Shown piece by piece: positions 10,744 to 20,509 of a stretch of 64,000 nucleotides of DNA (position 1 is its first letter; the number at the start of each line of letters is the position of its first letter). The position numbers were made by a program, and so were the translations under genes. The stretch comes from Qipengyuania marincola (lineage in GTDB: Bacteria > Pseudomonadota > Alphaproteobacteria > Sphingomonadales > Sphingomonadaceae): contig NZ_JARULC010000003.1 in assembly GCF_029688625.1 (NCBI RefSeq), positions 1-64,000 on the forward strand, given 5' to 3'. The notes under the pieces are model-generated. The model worked only from the letters and a program-made list of their open reading frames with translations. It had not been told where the DNA came from and did no database searches.

Positions 10744-13700
10744 TCAATGAAAATCTCGCGACTTGGGAATGATCCGCACATCGCGCGGATGTGAGCCGCG
10801 CCAACCGCATTCGCGATTGCCGGGCGGCGGCTCCTGCCATGGCTCGACCGGCTTGTAGGGATCCTCGCTTCCTTCACGTAGATTATCGCGCGGGTTGAAT
10901 TTGTCGGGCAGCGGTGAATTGACATGGTCGGCGCGCGCGACCGGCGCATTGAGCATATCGTCCGACAGGCGATAGAGCTGGTGGGTCGCGTCGGCCATGT
11001 GATGTGCGATGACGTGAATAACCTCGTCGTCATATTCCACCCGGCCGCGCACCTCCATCAGCCGGCTGCCCATGACGACACGGCGCTGCTTTTCCTTGAG
11101 ATCGGGCCACACGACGAGATTGATCACGCCCGTCTCGTCCTCCAGCGTGATGAAACAGACGCCCTTCGCACTGCCCGGTCGCTGGCGGATAAGCACCACG
11201 CCCGCGACATGGACCATGCTGCGGAATTTGCGCGCACGCAGGTCGCAGGCCCGCACGAAGCCGCGTTCGGCCAGAGACGCGCGCAGGAAGGCCATCGGAT
11301 GCGCCTTGAGGCTGAGCCGGGTCGTCTGGTAATCGGCCACCACTTCTTCTGACAGCGGCATCGACGGAAGCCGGGTGGGCGATGCTTCGGCGCCCTCGTC
11401 GCGCGCCGCCGCGGCAGCGAACAGCGGCAGGTCCGGTCCGCCCACCAGGCTGCGCGCATCCCACAAGGCCTGACGCCGTGATAGCTGCATCGAGCCGAAA
11501 CAATCCGCGCTCGCGAGCCGCTCGATATGTGCGGGACCGATGCGGGCACGATCCCGCACCGCCGTGACGTCGGCATAGGAGCCGTTCTCGGCACGCTCGG
11601 CAATCAACCGTGCTGCCACGGCTTCCGACAAGCCGTCGACCTGACGAAGACCGAGGCGCAGAGCCACATGCTGGTCGAGCCGGCCATTGTCTCCCAGGCG
11701 TTGACTGGTCTCCTCCACCCGTTCCAGCGTGCAATCCCATTGGGACAGATTGACGTCAGCCGGCAGCACCGTGACGCCATGCTCCACCGCATCGCGCACG
11801 ATCTGGGCGGGCGCATAAAAGCCCATCGGCTGCGAATTGAGCAGCGCACAGCCGAACGCGGCCGGGAAGTGGCATTTCAGCCAGCTCGACACATAGACGA
11901 GATGCGCGAAGCTGGCGGCATGGCTTTCGGGAAAGCCATATTCGCCGAACCCACGGATCTGGTTGAAACAGCGCTGGGCGAATTCGCGGTCGTACCCCCG
12001 CTCGACCATGCGCTCGACCATCATGTCCTGCAACTCGTCGACCATGCCGCGACTGCGGAAGGTCGCCATCGCCTTGCGCAAGCGATTGGCTTCGCGGCTC
12101 GAAAACTTCGCGGCATCGAGCGCGATTTTCATCGCCTGTTCCTGGAAGATCGGTACGCCCAGCGTACGCTCGAGGATGCTGGACAACTCGTCCGGCGGGC
12201 CGTGTTCGGGCGATGGAGCGGGAATAATGACCTGCTCCGCACCGCGGCGACGCTTGAGATAGGGGTGGACCATGTCACCCTGGATGGGTCCCGGGCGCAC
12301 GATGGCGACCTGGATCACGAGATCGTAGAACTCGCGCGGACGCAGCCGCGGAAGCATGTTCATCTGCGCGCGGCTTTCGACCTGGAACACACCCAGCGAG
12401 TCCCCCTTGCGCAGCATCGCATAGGTTTCCGGATCCTCACGCGGGACAGTGGCCAGCGTGAGCGTGCGGCCATGGTGATCGTCCAGCAGGTCGAGACATT
12501 TGCGGATGCAGGTCAGCATACCCAGCGCCAGAACGTCAACCTTGAGAATGCCCAACGCCTCGATATCGTCCTTGTCCCATTCGATGAAACTGCGTTCGGG
12601 CATGGCGCCATTGCCGATCGGCACGGTCTCGGTCAGCGCACTCTCGGTGAGGATGAAGCCGCCGACGTGCTGCGATAAATGGCGTGGCATACCAATCATT
12701 TGCTCGGTCAGTTTCAGGACACGGCGCAAGTGCGGATCGGTTACATCCATACCGGTTTCGGCGGCGTGCGCCTCGCTGATTTCGCGACCCCATCCGCCCC
12801 ATACGGTCTTGGCGAGCGCGGCGGTCACATCCTCGGTCAGGCCCATTGCCTTGCCCACCTCGCGGATCGCCATGCGCGGGCGATAGTGGATGACGGTGGC
12901 GCACAGACCTGCGCGATGGCGGCCGTATTTGCGATAGATATACTGGATAACCTCTTCGCGTCGTTCGTGCTCGAAATCGACGTCGATGTCGGGCGGCTCC
13001 TTGCGTTCTTCCGAAATGAAGCGATCGAACAGCAACGCATGCCGGGCCGGGTCGACGCTGGTAATGCCGAGGCAATAGCAGACGGCGGAATTCGCCGCGC
13101 TACCGCGCCCCTGGCACAGGATCGGCGGATCGCATCGCCGCGCATAATCGACGATGTCCTTGATGGTCAGGAAATAGCGCGCCAGGTCGAGCTTGCCGAT
13201 GAGCGCCAGTTCCTTGTGCAGCGTCTGACGCACGCTGTCGGGTAGCCCTGCTGGATAGCGCCATTCCGCACCCTTCCACGTCTCGCTTTCGAGAAAAGCC
13301 TGCGGTGGCTGGCCGTCCGGGTAGATTTCCTCCGGATACTCATAGGCCAGTTCATCGAGCGAGAAGTTGCAGGCATCGGCCACCTCGCGCGTAGCGGCGA
13401 TGGCATGCGGCCAACGCTCGAACAGCCGTATCATTGTCTCGGGCGGCTTGAGATAGCGTTCAGCATTGCCGTGGAGCAGATGCCCTGCCGCCGCCACCGT
13501 GGTCTTGTGCCGGATCGCGGTCATCACGTCCTGTAGCGGGCGCCGGTCGGGCGTGGCGTAATGCACGTCGTTGGTGGCGAGGATCGATACACCGTTTGCG
13601 CGAGCCAGTGCGTCGAGATGCCCGATCCTGGCGACATCATCGCCGCGATAGAGATAGCTGGCGGCGATATGGCGCATGGTTGCCAAGCCGGCGACGAGAT

Positions 13701-14280
13701 GCGGCACGATGGCCTCGAACGGGCCCGTAATGCTTTCCTGAACCTGCTGTCCGCCGAGACCCACGACATTGCTGGCCCACGCTGGGACGGTGAAGGCCGC
13801 CTTGAGATCGCTCGGCGGCAGCAGGATCAGTTGCACATTCTCGGCATGATCAGCCAGCATCGCAAGGCTGATGTCGCACTCGCCCTTGGCCTGCCATTCG
13901 CCATCCAGCGTCCGCATTCGGCCTGCGGAAATCAGCCGGCATAGACGGCCGTAAGCGGTTCGGTTCTCCGGATAGGCGAGCAAGGAAAGGCCCTCGATCG
14001 TTTCTATCCGGCAACCGATAAGGGGTTTTATCTTCAGCGTTTTCGCTTCGGAATGAATGCGTACCACCCCGGCCATGCTGTTCGCATCGGCAATTCCGAT
14101 CGCATCATAACCATGCGCATGTGCAGCGAGCATGAGATCGACCGCGTCCGAGGCTCCGCGCAGGAAGCTGAAGCAGGACAGGAGACCCAATTCGACGAAG
14201 GCGCCGCGCAGCGGCGCATCTATCGTGTCCGGATCAAGCTCGATCGTGCGCTTGGGGATCTGGAGGTCGTTTTCGGGCAT
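10744..14280 (-). CDS. dnaE2: Error-prone DNA polymerase DnaE2 (ImuC)
   Basis: C-family polymerase that carries out SOS mutagenic lesion bypass with ImuA and ImuB. The 1178-aa protein retains the polymerase aspartates: PDIDVDF (Asp431 and Asp433) and KVDVLALGML (Asp582). The N-terminal PHP domain begins ELGLLSCFSFLRGAS, where replicative DnaE has an HxHSxYS-type metal motif, so the PHP site looks inactive. Near the C-terminus an OB-fold is recognisable (GVCFITLEDETGVINLVVW). The gene starts 4 bp after udgX and has no promoter space of its own, so it depends on the SOS promoter before the radical SAM gene. Confidence 0.95.
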   Translation of the reverse strand: MPENDLQIPKRTIELDPDTIDAPLRGAFVELGLLSCFSFLRGASDAVDLMLAAHAHGYDAIGIADANSMAGVVRIHSEAKTLKIKPLIGCRIETIEGLSLLAYPENRTAYGRLCRLISAGRMRTLDGEWQAKGECDISLAMLADHAENVQLILLPPSDLKAAFTVPAWASNVVGLGGQQVQESITGPFEAIVPHLVAGLATMRHIAASYLYRGDDVARIGHLDALARANGVSILATNDVHYATPDRRPLQDVMTAIRHKTTVAAAGHLLHGNAERYLKPPETMIRLFERWPHAIAATREVADACNFSLDELAYEYPEEIYPDGQPPQAFLESETWKGAEWRYPAGLPDSVRQTLHKELALIGKLDLARYFLTIKDIVDYARRCDPPILCQGRGSAANSAVCYCLGITSVDPARHALLFDRFISEERKEPPDIDVDFEHERREEVIQYIYRKYGRHRAGLCATVIHYRPRMAIREVGKAMGLTEDVTAALAKTVWGGWGREISEAHAAETGMDVTDPHLRRVLKLTEQMIGMPRHLSQHVGGFILTESALTETVPIGNGAMPERSFIEWDKDDIEALGILKVDVLALGMLTCIRKCLDLLDDHHGRTLTLATVPREDPETYAMLRKGDSLGVFQVESRAQMNMLPRLRPREFYDLVIQVAIVRPGPIQGDMVHPYLKRRRGAEQVIIPAPSPEHGPPDELSSILERTLGVPIFQEQAMKIALDAAKFSSREANRLRKAMATFRSRGMVDELQDMMVERMVERGYDREFAQRCFNQIRGFGEYGFPESHAASFAHLVYVSSWLKCHFPAAFGCALLNSQPMGFYAPAQIVRDAVEHGVTVLPADVNLSQWDCTLERVEETSQRLGDNGRLDQHVALRLGLRQVDGLSEAVAARLIAERAENGSYADVTAVRDRARIGPAHIERLASADCFGSMQLSRRQALWDARSLVGGPDLPLFAAAAARDEGAEASPTRLPSMPLSEEVVADYQTTRLSLKAHPMAFLRASLAERGFVRACDLRARKFRSMVHVAGVVLIRQRPGSAKGVCFITLEDETGVINLVVWPDLKEKQRRVVMGSRLMEVRGRVEYDDEVIHVIAHHMADATHQLYRLSDDMLNAPVARADHVNSPLPDKFNPRDNLREGSEDPYKPVEPWQEPPPGNRECGWRGSHPRDVRIIPKSRDFH

Positions 14281-14284
14281 CGCG

Positions 14285-15736
14285 TCACCCGGCCAGTTCC
14301 TCGAGCCGCTCCTTCACCGCCGCCAGATCGGCATCGAACAGGCGCGCCTGCTCTTCGCGCGCCGCGCCATCGAGCCGCAACAGGTAGGACGGGTGTGCCG
14401 TGACCCAGAGCTCGCTCCCATCATCGAGTTCGATTGGTGCGCCGCGAACTTTTGAAATGCTGACCGTCTTGCCCAACATGCCCCGAGCCGCGCTCGCTCC
14501 CATGGCGAGCACCAGCTTCGGCTGCACGATCGCGCGTTCGCTCTCGATCCACCAGCGGCAGGTATCAATTTCCTTCGCGCCGGGGCTCTGGTGAAGCCGT
14601 CGCTTGCCGCGCTGGACATATTTGAAATGCTTGACCGCATTAGTGACATAAGCCGCCTTGCGCTCGATCCCGGCTTTTTCGAGGTGGCGATCGAGCAGTT
14701 GCCCTGCCGGCCCCACGAAGGGTCGACCCACCTGGTCCTCCTGGTCGCCGGGCTGTTCACCGACGATCATCAAGGCGGCATCCTGCGGCCCTTCACCCAT
14801 GACCGCATGATTGTCGAGCTGGCCGATCGGGCACTTGCGGCAGCCATGGATCGCCTTGTCGATCGCTGCCAGCGTTTCAGGTCGCTCTTCGAATTCCAGC
14901 GCACCCTTCTCGACCATCTTCGCCTCGCGTCCCTGGGCCCCTGCCACCAGCTCGGGAATGAGCGCGGCTTCAGGCATGTTCTTCCAGTATTTCTTGGGCA
15001 TCTCCTTGAGCATGGCCCCGATCTTCAAACGCGCCGGATTGAAAATGGATGCGTAATAGCTGCGCCACAGATCCTCCATCGGATCGCCTTGCGGCGCATC
15101 GCTGCGCTCGGCCGGCGGCCCTTCGCGCATGATTTCGCCATCCCAATGCAGCGAGCCGCGCGGCGTCAGGATCGACCACTGCATATTGGAAAAGCGCCGC
15201 ATGAAGAAGCCGGCGTTGGCGCGCACGATGTGGTGGTCGGGCTCGAACCAGGCGACGTAGTGCTCCTGCGTCTCACCGTCCTTTTCGCTCTCCACGAGTC
15301 GGAATCGTACGAACGCGTGCATCTTGTGGCTGTCGCGCCGCACGTTTTTGTCGAGCTCCTCGACCCGGCGAACATCGGGATCGGCCTTGTCTTCCATCAT
15401 CCGCGGATTGGCCTGCAGTCGCCACAGCAGGCGATAGAGCAGCGCGAACCGCTCCGGATCGGAATGCAGGATCGCATTGCGCGCCAGGCTTACGAACCGG
15501 CGATTGGCACGCACCGGCTTCGCATCGGGATCGGGCACGGGGCTGCGCCGCTCGCCGTGAGCGAAGAGATCGCCGCTACCCCCAGGTTCGACCCAGGCGA
15601 CCCGGTCGGGCGGAACCTCGCACTGGACCAGCGCGCGCGCCCGCTCGCGCCAGAAATCGAAATCGTCGGGCGTCGGCATTTGTACGACATAATATGTGCC
15701 GAGCTTCACATTGGCGAGATTGCGCGCAGTCTTCAT
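14285..15736 (-). CDS. UdgX-type uracil-DNA binding protein with N-terminal DUF4130 domain
   Basis: A 483-aa fusion. Residues about 10-215 match the DUF4130/TIGR03915 'DNA metabolism' domain. Residues about 265-483 are a uracil-DNA glycosylase-superfamily domain with four Fe-S-type cysteines expected (CRKC visible), the GEQPGDQED motif and GRPFVGPAG. The R-loop GKRRLHQSPG contains His382, the residue that in mycobacterial UdgX forms a covalent bond to DNA at uracil. The protein therefore probably traps or marks uracil sites rather than releasing free product. Its start overlaps the radical SAM stop by 4 bp (ATGA), and dnaE2 follows after 4 bp. This gives one SOS operon. Confidence 0.9.
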   Translation of the reverse strand: MKTARNLANVKLGTYYVVQMPTPDDFDFWRERARALVQCEVPPDRVAWVEPGGSGDLFAHGERRSPVPDPDAKPVRANRRFVSLARNAILHSDPERFALLYRLLWRLQANPRMMEDKADPDVRRVEELDKNVRRDSHKMHAFVRFRLVESEKDGETQEHYVAWFEPDHHIVRANAGFFMRRFSNMQWSILTPRGSLHWDGEIMREGPPAERSDAPQGDPMEDLWRSYYASIFNPARLKIGAMLKEMPKKYWKNMPEAALIPELVAGAQGREAKMVEKGALEFEERPETLAAIDKAIHGCRKCPIGQLDNHAVMGEGPQDAALMIVGEQPGDQEDQVGRPFVGPAGQLLDRHLEKAGIERKAAYVTNAVKHFKYVQRGKRRLHQSPGAKEIDTCRWWIESERAIVQPKLVLAMGASAARGMLGKTVSISKVRGAPIELDDGSELWVTAHPSYLLRLDGAAREEQARLFDADLAAVKERLEELAG

Positions 15737-16977
15737 GCGGCAAACAGCTCTAGCTGCTCGGTCCTCGGCGCGAGCAGCCTGCGCAGGTCCGCCCGGTCGG
15801 TCAACGTGACAGGCTGCCAGTCGACCGTGCAGATGAACGGCCGAACCTTGGTGATGGACTGGGTCAGCAATGCCACGTCGTCCAGGCGCAGGTTACGATG
15901 CCGCCGACTGGCCAGGATCTTGTGCACCGCCTTCACGCCCAGGCCGGGCACGCGCAGCAGTTGTTCCTTGCTCGCCCGGTTGACGTCGACCGGGAAAGCG
16001 TCGCGAAACTTCAAGGCCCATGCAAGCTTGGGATCGATATCGAGCGGCAAATTGCCGTCCGCCTCGGTCGCCTGCATCACCTCGGTCGGCTTGTAGCCAT
16101 AGAAACGCATCAACCAATCGGACTGGTAAAGGCGATGCTCGCGGATCAGCGGCGGACGCTTCAACGGCAATACGGCGCTGGCATCCGGAATGGGCGAGAA
16201 AGCGCTGTAGTAAACCCGGCGCAAGCGAAAGTTGTCGTAGAGCCGGCTTGCCTTGCCAACGATATCGGCATCGGTCGCAGCGTCGGCACCGACAATCATC
16301 TGTGTCGACTGGCCCGCGGGTGCAAAGCGCGGCGCATGCCTGAACCGCTTGCGGGCATCCTTCGCCTCGACAAGATCGGCCTTTACCTTGCCCATCGCGC
16401 CTTCGATCTGGCCCGCATTCTTGTCGGGCGCGAGTCGGGTGAGGCCGCTGTCGGTCGGCAACTCTACATTGATCGAGACGCGATCTGCATAAAGCCCCGC
16501 CTGATGGACGATCTCGGCATCGGCTTCGGGGATGGTCTTGAGATGGATATAGCCGCGAAAATCGTGCTCTTCCCGCAGGATGCGGGCGACTTCCACGATC
16601 TGTTCCATTGTATGATTCGAGCTTTTCACGATGCCCGAGGAGAGAAACAGCCCTTCGATGTAATTGCGCCGGTAGAAAGCGAGCGTGAGGTCTACCACTT
16701 CCTGCGGCGTGAAACGCGCCCGCGCCACGTTCGAACTCTTGCGGTTGACGCAGTAGTGGCAGTCGAACACGCAATGATTGGTCAGCAGGATCTTGAGCAG
16801 GCTGATACAGCGACCGTCGGGCGCATAGGCATGACATATGCCCATCCCTTCGGTCGAACCGATTCCCTTGCCACCCAGCGAGTTCTTCTTCGCTGTCCCG
16901 GATGACGCGCAGGAAGCATCGTATTTCGCCGCATCGGCGAGAATCTCCAGCTTTTGAAGGATGGTCTGCGAAGCCAT
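15733..16977 (-). CDS. Putative DNA modification/repair radical SAM protein (TIGR03916 type)
   Basis: A 414-aa radical SAM enzyme with the cluster motif CVFDCHYC (Cys69, Cys73, Cys76). Additional conserved-looking cysteines lie upstream (Cys23, Cys48, Cys57), and a C-terminal helix-hairpin-helix DNA-binding segment is present (VNRASKEQLLRVPGLGVKAV). The family is known from frequent linkage to UDG-family and DUF4130 proteins; its substrate is unknown. The open frame extends 69 codons upstream, but that part lacks family features and crosses the SOS promoter. The ATG at 16977 is therefore chosen. It is the first gene of the radical SAM-udgX-dnaE2 operon. Confidence 0.88.
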   Translation of the reverse strand: MASQTILQKLEILADAAKYDASCASSGTAKKNSLGGKGIGSTEGMGICHAYAPDGRCISLLKILLTNHCVFDCHYCVNRKSSNVARARFTPQEVVDLTLAFYRRNYIEGLFLSSGIVKSSNHTMEQIVEVARILREEHDFRGYIHLKTIPEADAEIVHQAGLYADRVSINVELPTDSGLTRLAPDKNAGQIEGAMGKVKADLVEAKDARKRFRHAPRFAPAGQSTQMIVGADAATDADIVGKASRLYDNFRLRRVYYSAFSPIPDASAVLPLKRPPLIREHRLYQSDWLMRFYGYKPTEVMQATEADGNLPLDIDPKLAWALKFRDAFPVDVNRASKEQLLRVPGLGVKAVHKILASRRHRNLRLDDVALLTQSITKVRPFICTVDWQPVTLTDRADLRRLLAPRTEQLELFAA

Positions 16978-16979
16978 TC

Positions 16980-17012
16980 GTTCTTTATATGTTCTACCGA
17001 TGGGTTTTCCAA
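16980..17012 (-). promoter_or_regulatory. SOS promoter with LexA box of the radical SAM-udgX-dnaE2 operon
   Basis: The plus strand reads GTTC-TTTATAT-GTTC at 16980-16994, an exact alphaproteobacterial LexA box. On the minus strand the box overlaps a -10 hexamer TATAAA (16984-16989). A -35 hexamer TTGGAA (17007-17012) lies 17 bp upstream of that. The box ends 2 bp before the ATG at 16977. With a normal -10 to +1 distance, transcription would begin at or next to the start codon, suggesting a leaderless message. Confidence 0.85.
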
Positions 17013-17715: not shown

Positions 17716-18114
17716 TTGGCACTGTTCCAGAGAAAACCGGCAACTGCACAGGCGGAGCGGCGGATCGCACGCCGACATGTCGTGGACTGCGCCGCGCGCC
17801 TGCAGCTTCTGGGTGGAGAACACGCTGGAAAACTCAGCAACTTGTCGATCGACGGGGCGCGGTTCGAAGCATCCGCCCCTCCTGCCGCGGGGGTCTCCGG
17901 ACTGCTCGCCTGGGGCGATCAGGAGCAATGGTGCAAAGTGGTCTGGAGCCGGGATAACAGTTGCGGTGTAGTTTTCGAGCGCAGCATCCCGCAGGCCGTA
18001 GTCGACGCGACCTCCGAGACCGTTGAGGTCGAACCGGGACCAAGCGCCGACTTCAGCAAAATACCGCTTGGGCAGAGGCGCGCACGACGCATGGCAGTGG
18101 TACCCAAGGCTTAG
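17716..18114 (+). CDS. PilZ-domain protein (putative c-di-GMP receptor)
   Basis: A 132-aa soluble protein that is almost entirely one PilZ domain. The arginine motif ERRIARRHVVDC (about 14-25) and the (D/N)xSxxG motif NLSIDGARFE are present; these bind cyclic di-GMP in the family. The start is probably TTG 17716 after a G-rich ribosome site; no ATG fits. It lies between the two arms of the SOS mutagenesis island and overlaps the 3' end of imuB by 4 bp in convergent orientation. No partner gene is next to it. Confidence 0.75.
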   Translation: MALFQRKPATAQAERRIARRHVVDCAARLQLLGGEHAGKLSNLSIDGARFEASAPPAAGVSGLLAWGDQEQWCKVVWSRDNSCGVVFERSIPQAVVDATSETVEVEPGPSADFSKIPLGQRRARRMAVVPKA

Positions 18115-19655
18115 GCACACAAACCCTGCATATACCAATCGGGTGCACCACCACGCCCATCGCCGACGATACCCTGGCGATAAATCCAGTAGCGTCGGCC
18201 ACATTCGTCCTCGATCCTGTAATAGTCGCGCAGGCGCGCAGAACCGCGTTCGCGCCACCATTCGGGTGCGATCCGTTCGGGGCCCTCCACCCGCGCGACT
18301 TCATGTACATGACCGCGCCAGCGAAATCGCTGGGGATAGCCATCGGGCGTGGCGTAGAGCACCGCGATATGCTCCGGCGCATCGAGCATTTTCAGCGGGC
18401 GCGCGTGGAATTCCAAACTGCCCTGCACTAGCGGCTCGGCCTCGAGCGGAGGTTGCCAGCGTTGCGCGCGCTCGGGAATATGACTGGCGAAGGGGACCGG
18501 GCGACTGACCGCCTTGGGGCCGAGTCTGACCGTCAGCCTGTCGATGCAGGCGGCAAGCGAAGTCCCGTGGATTTCGGCACCCGCTTCGATATCGCCCTGC
18601 TCCAGCGCCAGCGGCTCTGCCCAGCTGGCGCGCAGGCGCAACATCTCGATCCCGAAACCGGCATCGATATCGTCGAGCCGTGTGGCGAATAAACGGCAAA
18701 TATGCGCTGGATCGCGTGACGCGGCAGCCATTTCCAGCTGGCGCACCGCTACCTCACCATCGACACGCCACAGGCCCAGTTCGAGCCGCCGTGCACCGAG
18801 CCCCTTGCCCTCCAGTTCGCGTGCCATGTCGACGGCAAGATCGCCGACTACCTGATCCAGTAGCGCGCGGTGGCGAATCGGTTCCATCAGGCGGCGCTGG
18901 ACGAGCGGCATCTGCTGCGGGATGACCGGAAGAAGCGGTTCGGGCACCCGGCCGAGCAGCTGGTCGAGCCGGATCAGCGGATTGGCCGCGGGCGACTTGC
19001 GGTTGCGGAACCGCCGGTGCAGCGCGTCGCGACCGATCATAGTGATATCCCCGATCCGCTTGAGGCCGAGGCGACGCAATACCGTCAGCACATCGCTGTC
19101 GAGGCGCAGTGCAGCTACTGGCAGATCCGATAAGGCCCGCTCTATATCGGCATCGACGATTGCGGCAGGCGGGCCGTAGTGTGCCAGCGCCCATGCCGCT
19201 CCCGCAGTGGGCGCGATGGCCGCCCGAAGGGCGAGGTGGCGCTGGTCGAAGGCGGCGGACACATCGTCGAGCAGGGCCCCTTCCCCCCCGAACAGATGCG
19301 GCACCGCGGTCACGTCGACCAGCACGCCGTCGGGCGCATCCATCGCCGACCATGGCCCCCAGCGACGCGCCCAGGCAGCGAGCTTTTCGAGGAATGCCAG
19401 GTCACCTGCCGGGTCGGATGGGGCGGTCGCGATTTCAGGGCACAGCGTGCGTACGTCGGCCAGCATCATACCGGCTCTCGCCCCTGCCGTCTTCCCTGCA
19501 CGATTGGCCGCTTCGATGCGCGGGCCGTGTGCGGTTTCGGCAATCAGGACAAGGGGCCTGTCATCGAATTCGCGGCGGTCTGGCGAGCCCTGTCGCCAGC
19601 GATCGATTGCCATCGCCGGAAGCCAGATTGAAAGAATGCGCCGCGATCCGGCCAT
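18111..19655 (-). CDS. imuB: ImuB, Y-family DNA polymerase-like mutasome subunit
   Basis: A 514-aa protein with a Y-family polymerase fold but without the catalytic carboxylates. Where active enzymes have the SxDE motif, this one reads DAPDGVLVDVT, as in known ImuB proteins. ImuB is a non-catalytic hub linking the beta clamp, ImuA and DnaE2. Thumb and little-finger regions are recognisable by pattern (RLGLKRIGDITMIGRDALHRRF for the HhH thumb). The gene starts 9 bp after imuA. Its stop overlaps the convergent PilZ gene by 4 bp. Confidence 0.92.
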   Translation of the reverse strand: MAGSRRILSIWLPAMAIDRWRQGSPDRREFDDRPLVLIAETAHGPRIEAANRAGKTAGARAGMMLADVRTLCPEIATAPSDPAGDLAFLEKLAAWARRWGPWSAMDAPDGVLVDVTAVPHLFGGEGALLDDVSAAFDQRHLALRAAIAPTAGAAWALAHYGPPAAIVDADIERALSDLPVAALRLDSDVLTVLRRLGLKRIGDITMIGRDALHRRFRNRKSPAANPLIRLDQLLGRVPEPLLPVIPQQMPLVQRRLMEPIRHRALLDQVVGDLAVDMARELEGKGLGARRLELGLWRVDGEVAVRQLEMAAASRDPAHICRLFATRLDDIDAGFGIEMLRLRASWAEPLALEQGDIEAGAEIHGTSLAACIDRLTVRLGPKAVSRPVPFASHIPERAQRWQPPLEAEPLVQGSLEFHARPLKMLDAPEHIAVLYATPDGYPQRFRWRGHVHEVARVEGPERIAPEWWRERGSARLRDYYRIEDECGRRYWIYRQGIVGDGRGGAPDWYMQGLCA

Positions 19656-19664
19656 GTCGCACGG

Positions 19665-20492
19665 TCAGCCCCGCGCGATTAGCGGACGCGTTGCCGCCTC
19701 GCCGAAGAACGCTCGCCCGATCGAACCGCCAGTCGAAGGAACATCGCGACCCTGTCCCGCACGACGTGCAGACAACGATCCGCCCGTTTGCGACAACACC
19801 CAGTGTCCCGGCGCATGCGAACGCGCACGGAAAAGTTCCGCCTGCCATGCCGGCTGGCCCGGGGCCTGCGCATTCCATCGGGGCGTGTCTGAACGTGCCG
19901 AGGTCACCTCCCAACGCATCCGGGCAGACGAGAGGTCTCGCGCGGCGTCCAGGCGCACGAGGTACAGCGGTACACCATGCTTTTGCGCCGCCAGCGTCAA
20001 CCGGCGTGAAGCGGTGAAATCGAGCGAACGAGGATTGCCCGCGACCTCTCCGATGACGAAAGCGAGATCGCGACAGCGCAGCCCTTCTTCCAGCGCGAAG
20101 AGCGCGTCTTCGGGCTTTTCGGCCAGCACATGAACAATGCGCGATTGCAATTCGCGGGGCAAGCCCGCGCGATAGGGGCGCCCGCCGATCCTTGCCGCAT
20201 CGCGGGTCTGCACCCACAGCACGCTGCGCCGGTCCTCTGCTTCCTGCCCTGCCGGGCGAGGCAGGTGCTGCAGGTCGTCCAGTGCGAGCGCCAACGCCAC
20301 CCCTGCACCGGCCGCTTCGCGCGAGGAGGCGAAAACCTCGTTATGCAGTGCCGCCCCTTGCCGCATTGCAAGGCCGGGACGCCAGCGTGCACTCCGCTGG
20401 GCGGACAGGGCCGCGACGTCCGCGAAGGATGCCAGCGGCAGAGCGGCCTGATCGGCCGAGCGATCGGTAAGAGACATAGTGGAGCGACTCAT
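19665..20492 (-). CDS. imuA: ImuA, RecA-like SOS mutagenesis accessory protein
   Basis: A 275-aa protein with a RecA/SulA-like fold that acts with ImuB and DnaE2 in SOS mutagenesis. No intact Walker A is apparent, as is usual for ImuA. The Walker-B-like strand CRDLAFVIGEV and the C-terminal LYLVRLDAARDLSSARMRWEV match family patterns. The ATG at 20492 lies 2 bp from a LexA box, as with the radical SAM gene. A second ATG five codons in (20477) is a weaker option because neither has a Shine-Dalgarno. imuB follows 9 bp downstream. Confidence 0.9.
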   Translation of the reverse strand: MSRSTMSLTDRSADQAALPLASFADVAALSAQRSARWRPGLAMRQGAALHNEVFASSREAAGAGVALALALDDLQHLPRPAGQEAEDRRSVLWVQTRDAARIGGRPYRAGLPRELQSRIVHVLAEKPEDALFALEEGLRCRDLAFVIGEVAGNPRSLDFTASRRLTLAAQKHGVPLYLVRLDAARDLSSARMRWEVTSARSDTPRWNAQAPGQPAWQAELFRARSHAPGHWVLSQTGGSLSARRAGQGRDVPSTGGSIGRAFFGEAATRPLIARG

Positions 20493-20494
20493 AT

Positions 20495-20509
20495 GTTCTT
20501 ATTATGTTC
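20495..20509 (-). promoter_or_regulatory. LexA (SOS) box of imuA-imuB
   Basis: GTTC-TTATTAT-GTTC on the plus strand is an exact GTTC-N7-GTTC box ending 2 bp before the imuA ATG, the same geometry as at the radical SAM operon. On the minus strand the N7 contains an A/T-rich -10-like segment (ATAATA or TAATAA). TTGCGA about 18 bp upstream is a possible -35. Confidence 0.85.

Follow-up and report, generated by a model that had tools for sequence, protein, structure and literature searches.

A 64,000-nucleotide stretch of Qipengyuania marincola DNA (NCBI RefSeq assembly GCF_029688625.1, contig NZ_JARULC010000003.1, positions 1 to 64,000; referred to below as the window) encodes a radical S-adenosylmethionine (SAM) protein, termed rSAM here, a fusion of a DUF4130 domain with the uracil-DNA-binding protein UdgX, and the error-prone polymerase DnaE2. 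The three genes very probably make up a compact operon on the minus strand, preceded by an exact LexA box. Comparison of related sequences indicates, however, that the conserved SOS unit is rSAM together with DUF4130, and not the three genes. With moderate confidence, we take rSAM to be a clamp-docked radical SAM enzyme whose target is damaged DNA and whose place is next to the mutasome, while UdgX captures uracil. The operon layout, the conserved promoter and boxes, the motifs and the pairings are read directly from the sequences. The operon comprises the following elements:

16984..17012, minus strand: predicted sigma-70 promoter, TTGGAA (17012-17007), a 17-bp spacer and TATAAA (16989-16984), with a predicted leaderless start at or near ATG 16977
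16980..16994, minus strand: LexA box GAAC-N7-GAAC, GAACATATAAAGAAC, overlapping the -10 element and conserved in 78 of 80 named loci
15733..16977, minus strand: rSAM, radical SAM protein of 414 amino acids (TIGR03916, rSAM_link_UDG; 573 bits, cut-off 343.5)
14285..15736, minus strand: DUF4130-UdgX fusion (udgX), 483 amino acids, identified by family-profile matches
10744..14280, minus strand: dnaE2, error-prone polymerase (NF004225; 1374.9 bits, cut-off 939)

The open reading frames and their junctions bear out the spacing given in the original prediction: rSAM and udgX overlap by 4 bp, and 4 bases (14284-14281) separate the udgX stop from the dnaE2 ATG at 14280. The exact LexA box announced beside ATG 16977 is likewise present, 2 bases before the start codon. 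That the genes "must be co-transcribed" is better worded as highly probable than as certain, given the tight layout and a terminator scan that found no terminator-like site on the minus strand between the LexA box and the end of dnaE2. The range first assigned to the operon, 14285..16994, ends correctly at the box, but the operon continues to 10744.

The LexA box and promoter of rSAM

We rejected the LexA box alone as evidence, because its frequency is near chance both in the window (2 GAAC-N7-GAAC sites, 1.57 expected) and genome-wide (75 sites versus 48 for a reversed control pattern). What raises the rSAM box above chance is its conservation at related loci, its fixed geometry and the occurrence of the same motif before lexA, recA and a uvrD-like gene. 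The named loci, 80 in number, are the best of at least 591 confirmed relatives. In 78 of them a box lies no more than 150 bp from the start of rSAM (0.26 expected in shuffles); the two others (L114 and L125) carry near-copies of the site. The closest named matches to proteins of the window are mostly assigned to Qipengyuania or Erythrobacter, consistent with its place in the order Sphingomonadales. A sample of 118 genomes of this order contains rSAM above cut-off in 39 and UdgX in 41, and 29 of 30 loci drawn from these 39 rSAM matches have a box within the same distance. Other alphaproteobacterial loci have one in 34 of 35 cases, both orientations counted. These three sets may share genomes, and their counts are not additive.

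The start codon begins exactly 2 bases past the box in 60 of the 78 boxed loci. A T..G pair stands at -18/-16 of the box in 72 of them, while 17 neighbouring offsets give values of 0-28, and the TA inside the box is invariant (78/78). This geometry reads as a predicted TTGnnn-N17-TATAnn promoter with LexA over the -10 element and a transcript start at or near the ATG; transcription of the operon would probably be leaderless. The remaining 18 loci have a longer leader, with an AGG/GGA stretch before the start in 14 (a count without a control set). A scan with a stricter promoter consensus did not list the predicted rSAM promoter.

The host genome carries the same motif upstream of lexA (C1:988312-988326; gene match 987582-988277) and also upstream of recA and a uvrD-like gene, both named from their translated starts. 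An operator conserved before rSAM and a lexA gene with the same operator type in the genome are what is expected of a LexA regulon, and LexA probably binds the rSAM box. The host genome has another LexA-family match at C1:529546-530288, weak at 25 bits and under the cut-off, with a GAACGTATAGGGAAC site nearby.

Outside the class, the type of box changes but its position does not. Of 23 loci in other classes of the phylum, 17 have CTGT-N8-ACAG within 150 bp (0.04 expected). Caballeronia has this site at -20 of rSAM. In a Clostridia record, two GAAC-N4-GTTC sites lie at -191 and -162, and Parabacteroides has a single GGA-N5-TCC match; near the rSAM genes of Acetoanaerobium and Gemmatirosa, none of the six site types tried was found. 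That one gene carries LexA motifs that differ with the lineage is difficult to account for without SOS control, and the rSAM pair looks damage-induced across many bacteria.

rSAM and DUF4130 as the conserved unit

The gene following rSAM had been described simply as udgX. It does contain a UdgX domain, but the DUF4130 domain fused to its N-terminus was overlooked:

14966..15670, minus strand: DUF4130 / TIGR03915 domain, residues 23-257 (229.9 bits, cut-off 112.25)
14315..14962, minus strand: UdgX domain TIGR03914, residues 259-474 (323.3 bits, cut-off 189.95)
14591..14593, minus strand: R-loop His382, corresponding to H109, the covalent nucleophile in M. smegmatis UdgX

Each of the 62 aligned loci, a hand-chosen set, pairs rSAM with DUF4130. 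In the 80 named loci, DUF4130 is found in 78 and a uracil-DNA glycosylase (UDG) domain in 77; the named loci L065 and L139 end at a contig edge. Every one of the 39 rSAM genomes of the order also has UdgX (Fisher test 3e-29, kinship ignored), with the two within 4 kb in 38. The unlinked exception, G002, is an assembly of about 430 contigs with dnaE2 on another contig, and the UdgX match of G027 spans two frames. Further afield, in 17 of 40 loci from a wider range of Proteobacteria, rSAM-DUF4130 comes without a UDG domain in a flank of about 3.5 kb, which makes uracil capture appear an add-on, and in records from Parabacteroides and Pusillibacter DUF4130 (TIGR03915) stands alone beside rSAM.

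Within the fusion, DUF4130 residues His137, Arg144, Pro166 and Arg181 are invariant over 63 rows. The UdgX domain has a UDG family-4-like fold, and UDG matches fill the lists for the fusion model, which barely cover the residues before about 266. Motif A with its Gln (GEQPG) and the R-loop histidine are both present in the window protein; the corresponding residues are conserved in the aligned UDG-domain rows (E 44/44, Q 43/44, R-loop His 44/44). The fusion may capture uracil-DNA covalently. It differs from M. smegmatis UdgX (PDB codes 6AJO and 6IOD) in its N-terminal DUF4130 domain and its rSAM partner. UdgX forms a covalent complex instead of turning over, and PMC10359453 describes its physiological role as largely unknown.

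One could therefore picture a uracil base-excision unit, in which UdgX removes uracil or ribonucleotide misinsertions of the SOS polymerases and rSAM and DUF4130 are helpers. The intact active site, the presence of UdgX in 39 of 39 rSAM genomes and the published reading of a COG1573-COG4277 pair, which in the available part of PMC8565304 comes close to this suggestion, all speak for it. However, the 17 wider loci lacking a UDG domain, the DUF4130 genes standing alone beside rSAM in Parabacteroides and Pusillibacter, and a covalent complex without turnover (PMC10359453) do not, and we regard such a unit as unlikely. The damage-time uracil module of the original prediction is partly supported: the LexA box is conserved and the UdgX residues are intact, but UdgX is an optional component of the loci.

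A hemerythrin-like gene lies between rSAM and UdgX in 11 of the 80 named loci (L107, L117, L121-L124, L126, L128, L131, L136 and L137), with PF01814 in the 4 scanned; the 11 come from several genera, among them Sphingomonas, Novosphingobium and Sphingobium. Its product is a candidate oxygen or iron partner for rSAM.

The rSAM protein

Three segments of rSAM bear on its chemistry and on its contact with DNA:

16807..16911, minus strand: three extra conserved cysteines, C23, C48 and C57, a possible auxiliary Fe-S site
16750..16773, minus strand: radical SAM motif CX3CX2C (C69, C73, C76), from the alignment
15898..15993, minus strand: helix-hairpin-helix (HhH) DNA-binding segment (HHH_3; 25.2 bits, Pfam cut-off 27)

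The protein belongs to TIGR03916 by its score, its CX3CX2C motif and its adjacent TIGR03915 partner; C69, C73 and C76 are invariant in 63 aligned rows. The extra-cysteine pattern recurs in 169 of 170 distinct orthologs, with a different spacing in the remaining one, and an extra Fe-S site is probable. ComEA and RuvA HhH segments are among the weak PDB sequence matches. An AlphaFold2 model has a predicted local distance difference test (pLDDT) value of 85.9, and the closest solved folds listed for it are LipA, HydE and BioB, at an identity of only 11-19%. Compared with lipoyl synthase, HydE and biotin synthase, rSAM has an added HhH segment and a clamp tail, and we take its cysteine spacing to differ from theirs as well. 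The resemblance is one of fold, and lipoyl-synthase-like sulfur chemistry is not claimed. Our literature searches found no reported substrate for the TIGR03916 family.

Deamination occurs within pyrimidine dimers. If rSAM were photoproduct-lyase-like and reversed such dimers, while UdgX removed the uracil arising inside them, this chemistry would explain the pairing with a uracil binder, and it would suit the SOS context and the earlier label "SplB-like" in the available part of PMC3765255. The closest solved folds listed here are LipA, HydE and BioB instead; SplB gave no family-model match, and it is absent from the 50 fold-comparison rows listed, which does not exclude it. We consider a photoproduct lyase quite unlikely.

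As to a possible phage origin, 10 phage records contain relatives, all below 60% identity, and 8 of these records are unannotated faecal contigs. Two 240-kb "Acinetobacter phage" records (H61 and H62) carry rSAM, and bacterial sequence in these records is possible.

A clamp-binding-like motif in the rSAM tail

The rSAM protein ends in QLELFAA, which contains a further element:

15742..15756, minus strand: C-terminal beta-clamp-binding-like motif QLELF, residues 408-412

Clamp-binding motifs follow the consensus QL[S/D]LF and are commoner at a terminus than at an internal site, according to the available part of PMC3716654. The pattern Q[LM]x[LM][FLW] is found in the last 14 residues of 149 of 170 distinct rSAM orthologs (1.8 expected from shuffled tails), in 23 of the 30 sequences that represent them at 75% identity (0.2 expected) and in 79 of the 80 named loci, and in none of 4014 internal rSAM 14-mers. 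At the named loci, it is missing from the tails of UdgX (0/76), DnaE2 (0/34), ImuB (0/37) and ImuA (0/36). rSAM tails from other lineages look similar, with QLILPF in Bacteroidota, QLSLF and QLSIF in Clostridia and QLSLL in Caballeronia. Residues 408-414 are modelled with a pLDDT below 50, and a QLxLF-type motif in what appears to be an exposed terminus is typical of a clamp client. We infer that the rSAM tail binds the clamp. No report of a clamp motif in the rSAM family was found, and among the titles listed none links a radical SAM protein with the clamp, although neither result proves absence from print.

A 35% identical rSAM relative on a Gemmatirosa plasmid (L262) has QLSLW near its end and lacks the extra cysteines; the next long open frame found there does not resemble DUF4130.

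In mycobacteria, the mutasome functions only if ImuB has a clamp motif of its own (PMC10421592, available part), which makes a platform shared with rSAM plausible. We rejected the idea that rSAM supplies a clamp motif lost by ImuB, since ImuB is rarely canonical with or without rSAM: the canonical motif occurs in 3 of 37 ImuB orthologs at named loci and in none of the 27 ImuB proteins, some of them fragments, beside 30 dnaE2 loci. ImuB of the order (18111-19655 in the window; L141-L170) mostly lacks canonical QLxL[FW].

Many radical SAM enzymes modify proteins. It is conceivable that rSAM is such a maturase and that it modifies DUF4130, UdgX or a clamp-bound partner instead of DNA, a role that would suit the constancy of the rSAM-DUF4130 pairing (62/62 hand-chosen alignments, 78/80 named loci). 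The HhH segment and the clamp motif, however, point to DNA and the fork, and L135, one of the two unpaired loci, is not explained by a contig end. A maturase is, in our view, distinctly improbable.

Linkage to dnaE2 and the imu genes

Upstream of rSAM lie the other genes of a mutasome cassette, a second LexA box and a PilZ gene:

18111..19655, minus strand: imuB (IMS, IMS_C and DUF6504; no NCBIfam match)
19665..20492, minus strand: imuA (NF033429, 27.5 bits against a cut-off of 150; named also from position and neighbours)
20495..20509, minus strand: second LexA box, GAACATAATAAGAAC, 2 bases before the imuA ATG, over the -10-like CATAAT
17716-18114, plus strand: PilZ gene, between imuB and rSAM

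The minus-strand order is thus imuA, imuB, rSAM, udgX and dnaE2, interrupted by the plus-strand PilZ gene. Like the ImuA-ImuB-DnaE2 cassette, the window has imuA, imuB and dnaE2, with LexA boxes before imuA and rSAM. It differs in that imuB is not directly upstream of dnaE2: rSAM-udgX intervenes, and brings the only exact box close upstream of dnaE2. Among the 37 of 75 named loci with enough sequence in which dnaE2 directly follows udgX, none has an exact LexA box between rSAM and dnaE2, and SOS induction of dnaE2 there appears to rely on the rSAM promoter. A separate box precedes imuA in 33 of the 35 loci that could be tested.

A survey of the order had been proposed for the pair upstream of dnaE2. 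It finds rSAM and UdgX together in 39 of 39 genomes, but dnaE2 directly after them in 16, so that joint function with DnaE2 is lineage-specific at most. In 21 of the 39, dnaE2 is far off or on another contig; G112 has no dnaE2 passing cut-off. The three-gene LexA operon therefore holds in the window, while beyond it rSAM-DUF4130 is the core.

The link to dnaE2 might even be incidental, the pair having been inserted between imuB and dnaE2 in one family and merely sharing SOS control. Of the order's best-scoring 30 dnaE2 loci, 27 have imuB no more than 1.5 kb from dnaE2, and the other 3 have UdgX there; a congener without the pair (G018) has imuB adjoining dnaE2, and G023 and G087 have UdgX in that place. 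This pattern suggests that the pair was placed inside the imu cassette in this group, and the 21 genomes with dnaE2 elsewhere agree with an incidental link. Yet imuA-imuB is linked to the pair a second, separate time: in the alphaproteobacterial family f144, imuA-imuB and rSAM-UdgX are transcribed divergently in 6 of the 7 genomes examined (L209-L212, L215, L216 and L240, the last from the same genome as L212; the exception is G431, L241). At L240, one of these six, for which longer flanks were fetched, dnaE2 follows imuB and GTTC-N7-GTTC lies between both transcription units. Furthermore, DnaE2 is present in 38 of 39 rSAM genomes versus 38 of 79 others (phylogeny ignored), and in 37 of 37 linked loci no exact box is nearer dnaE2 than the rSAM box. 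An incidental link is a real possibility, which we judge somewhat improbable.

Discussion

Our preferred reading, a clamp-docked radical SAM enzyme beside the mutasome, can be put as a sequence of steps. One promoter, repressed by LexA through an operator that covers the -10 element, would drive rSAM, DUF4130-UdgX and, in this lineage, dnaE2 from a transcript that is probably leaderless. Damage would lead to LexA cleavage and to expression of the operon together with imuA-imuB. rSAM would be a radical enzyme that binds DNA through its HhH segment and probably holds an extra Fe-S site. Its disordered C-terminus, with QLELF, would anchor it to the beta sliding clamp, and together with DUF4130 it would act on DNA damage in gaps or at stalled forks, sites where the ImuB-DnaE2 mutasome is active too. 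UdgX, as part of the fusion, would excise uracil there and stay covalently on the abasic site, shielding it from breakage. That rSAM acts on DNA at all is suggested by sequence features. A more specific version, in which clamp-riding rSAM of many bacteria chemically edits lesion bases at the fork with DUF4130, before or with translesion synthesis, and UdgX is an optional covalent cap that holds abasic sites derived from uracil, is tentative and in our opinion rather unlikely.

Several observations weigh against the preferred reading. Six of the 23 loci from other classes lack an exact site, dnaE2 comes directly after the pair in only 16 of the 39 genomes with rSAM, and of the 40 wider loci only L240 has imu genes in its neighbourhood. 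The N-terminal cysteine region of rSAM is modelled at low confidence, and its HhH segment scores just under the Pfam cut-off. Of the rSAM tails, 21 of 170 are off the strict pattern; those printed include QLSLAF, QLGFGF, QASLF, QGSLF, QFELF and QLSLI, while QMLLI fits poorly. The same pattern is also found inside DnaE2 (QMNML, 34/34), and a match to such a short linear motif alone proves nothing. Finally, the Sphingomonas metagenome-assembled genome locus L135 has rSAM and a LexA box with no DUF4130 or UdgX within 10 kb.

COG4277 is presumably the radical SAM/HhH family described here. LexA (SOS) control of a COG1573-COG4277 pair has been reported in Bacteroidetes in the available part of PMC8565304, which cites Verrucomicrobia and Caulobacter, and da Rocha 2008 and Erill 2016 for Alphaproteobacteria and Verrucomicrobia. 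That operon is likewise a LexA-controlled two-gene unit with a UDG-superfamily protein. Here, in contrast, the next gene after the pair is dnaE2 in 16 of the 39 genomes that have rSAM, and the part of PMC8565304 available mentions neither the clamp tail, nor the promoter geometry, nor the extra cysteines. Aravind et al. (PMC3765255, Fig. 1 legend) associated the same three domains, DUF4130, SplB-like rSAM and UDGs, and linked them to SOS; the available part mentions no clamp motif and no regulatory analysis of the pair. One LexA-bound "Radical SAM protein" (PMC9380542) and a radical SAM protein in LexA regulons (PMC7739468) have been described with no family given. No usable mention of the rSAM-UdgX pair was found in PMC1839093, PMC12700426, PMC13384398, PMC12926913 or PMC4201530, and for DUF4130/COG4277 only PMC3765255 and PMC8565304 were found, which does not prove absence from print. 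As far as our literature searches reach, the clamp motif, the promoter geometry, the optionality of UdgX, the cassette insertion with its single box and the hemerythrin variant are new.

These findings move the focus from uracil to the rSAM-DUF4130 core. The clamp tail and the shared SOS promoter indicate where and when the rSAM unit may work. In the lineages where DnaE2 synthesis appears to depend on the rSAM promoter, careless deletions of rSAM or udgX could also remove DnaE2. If rSAM does edit lesion bases, the SOS response would include a kind of action beyond excision and bypass.

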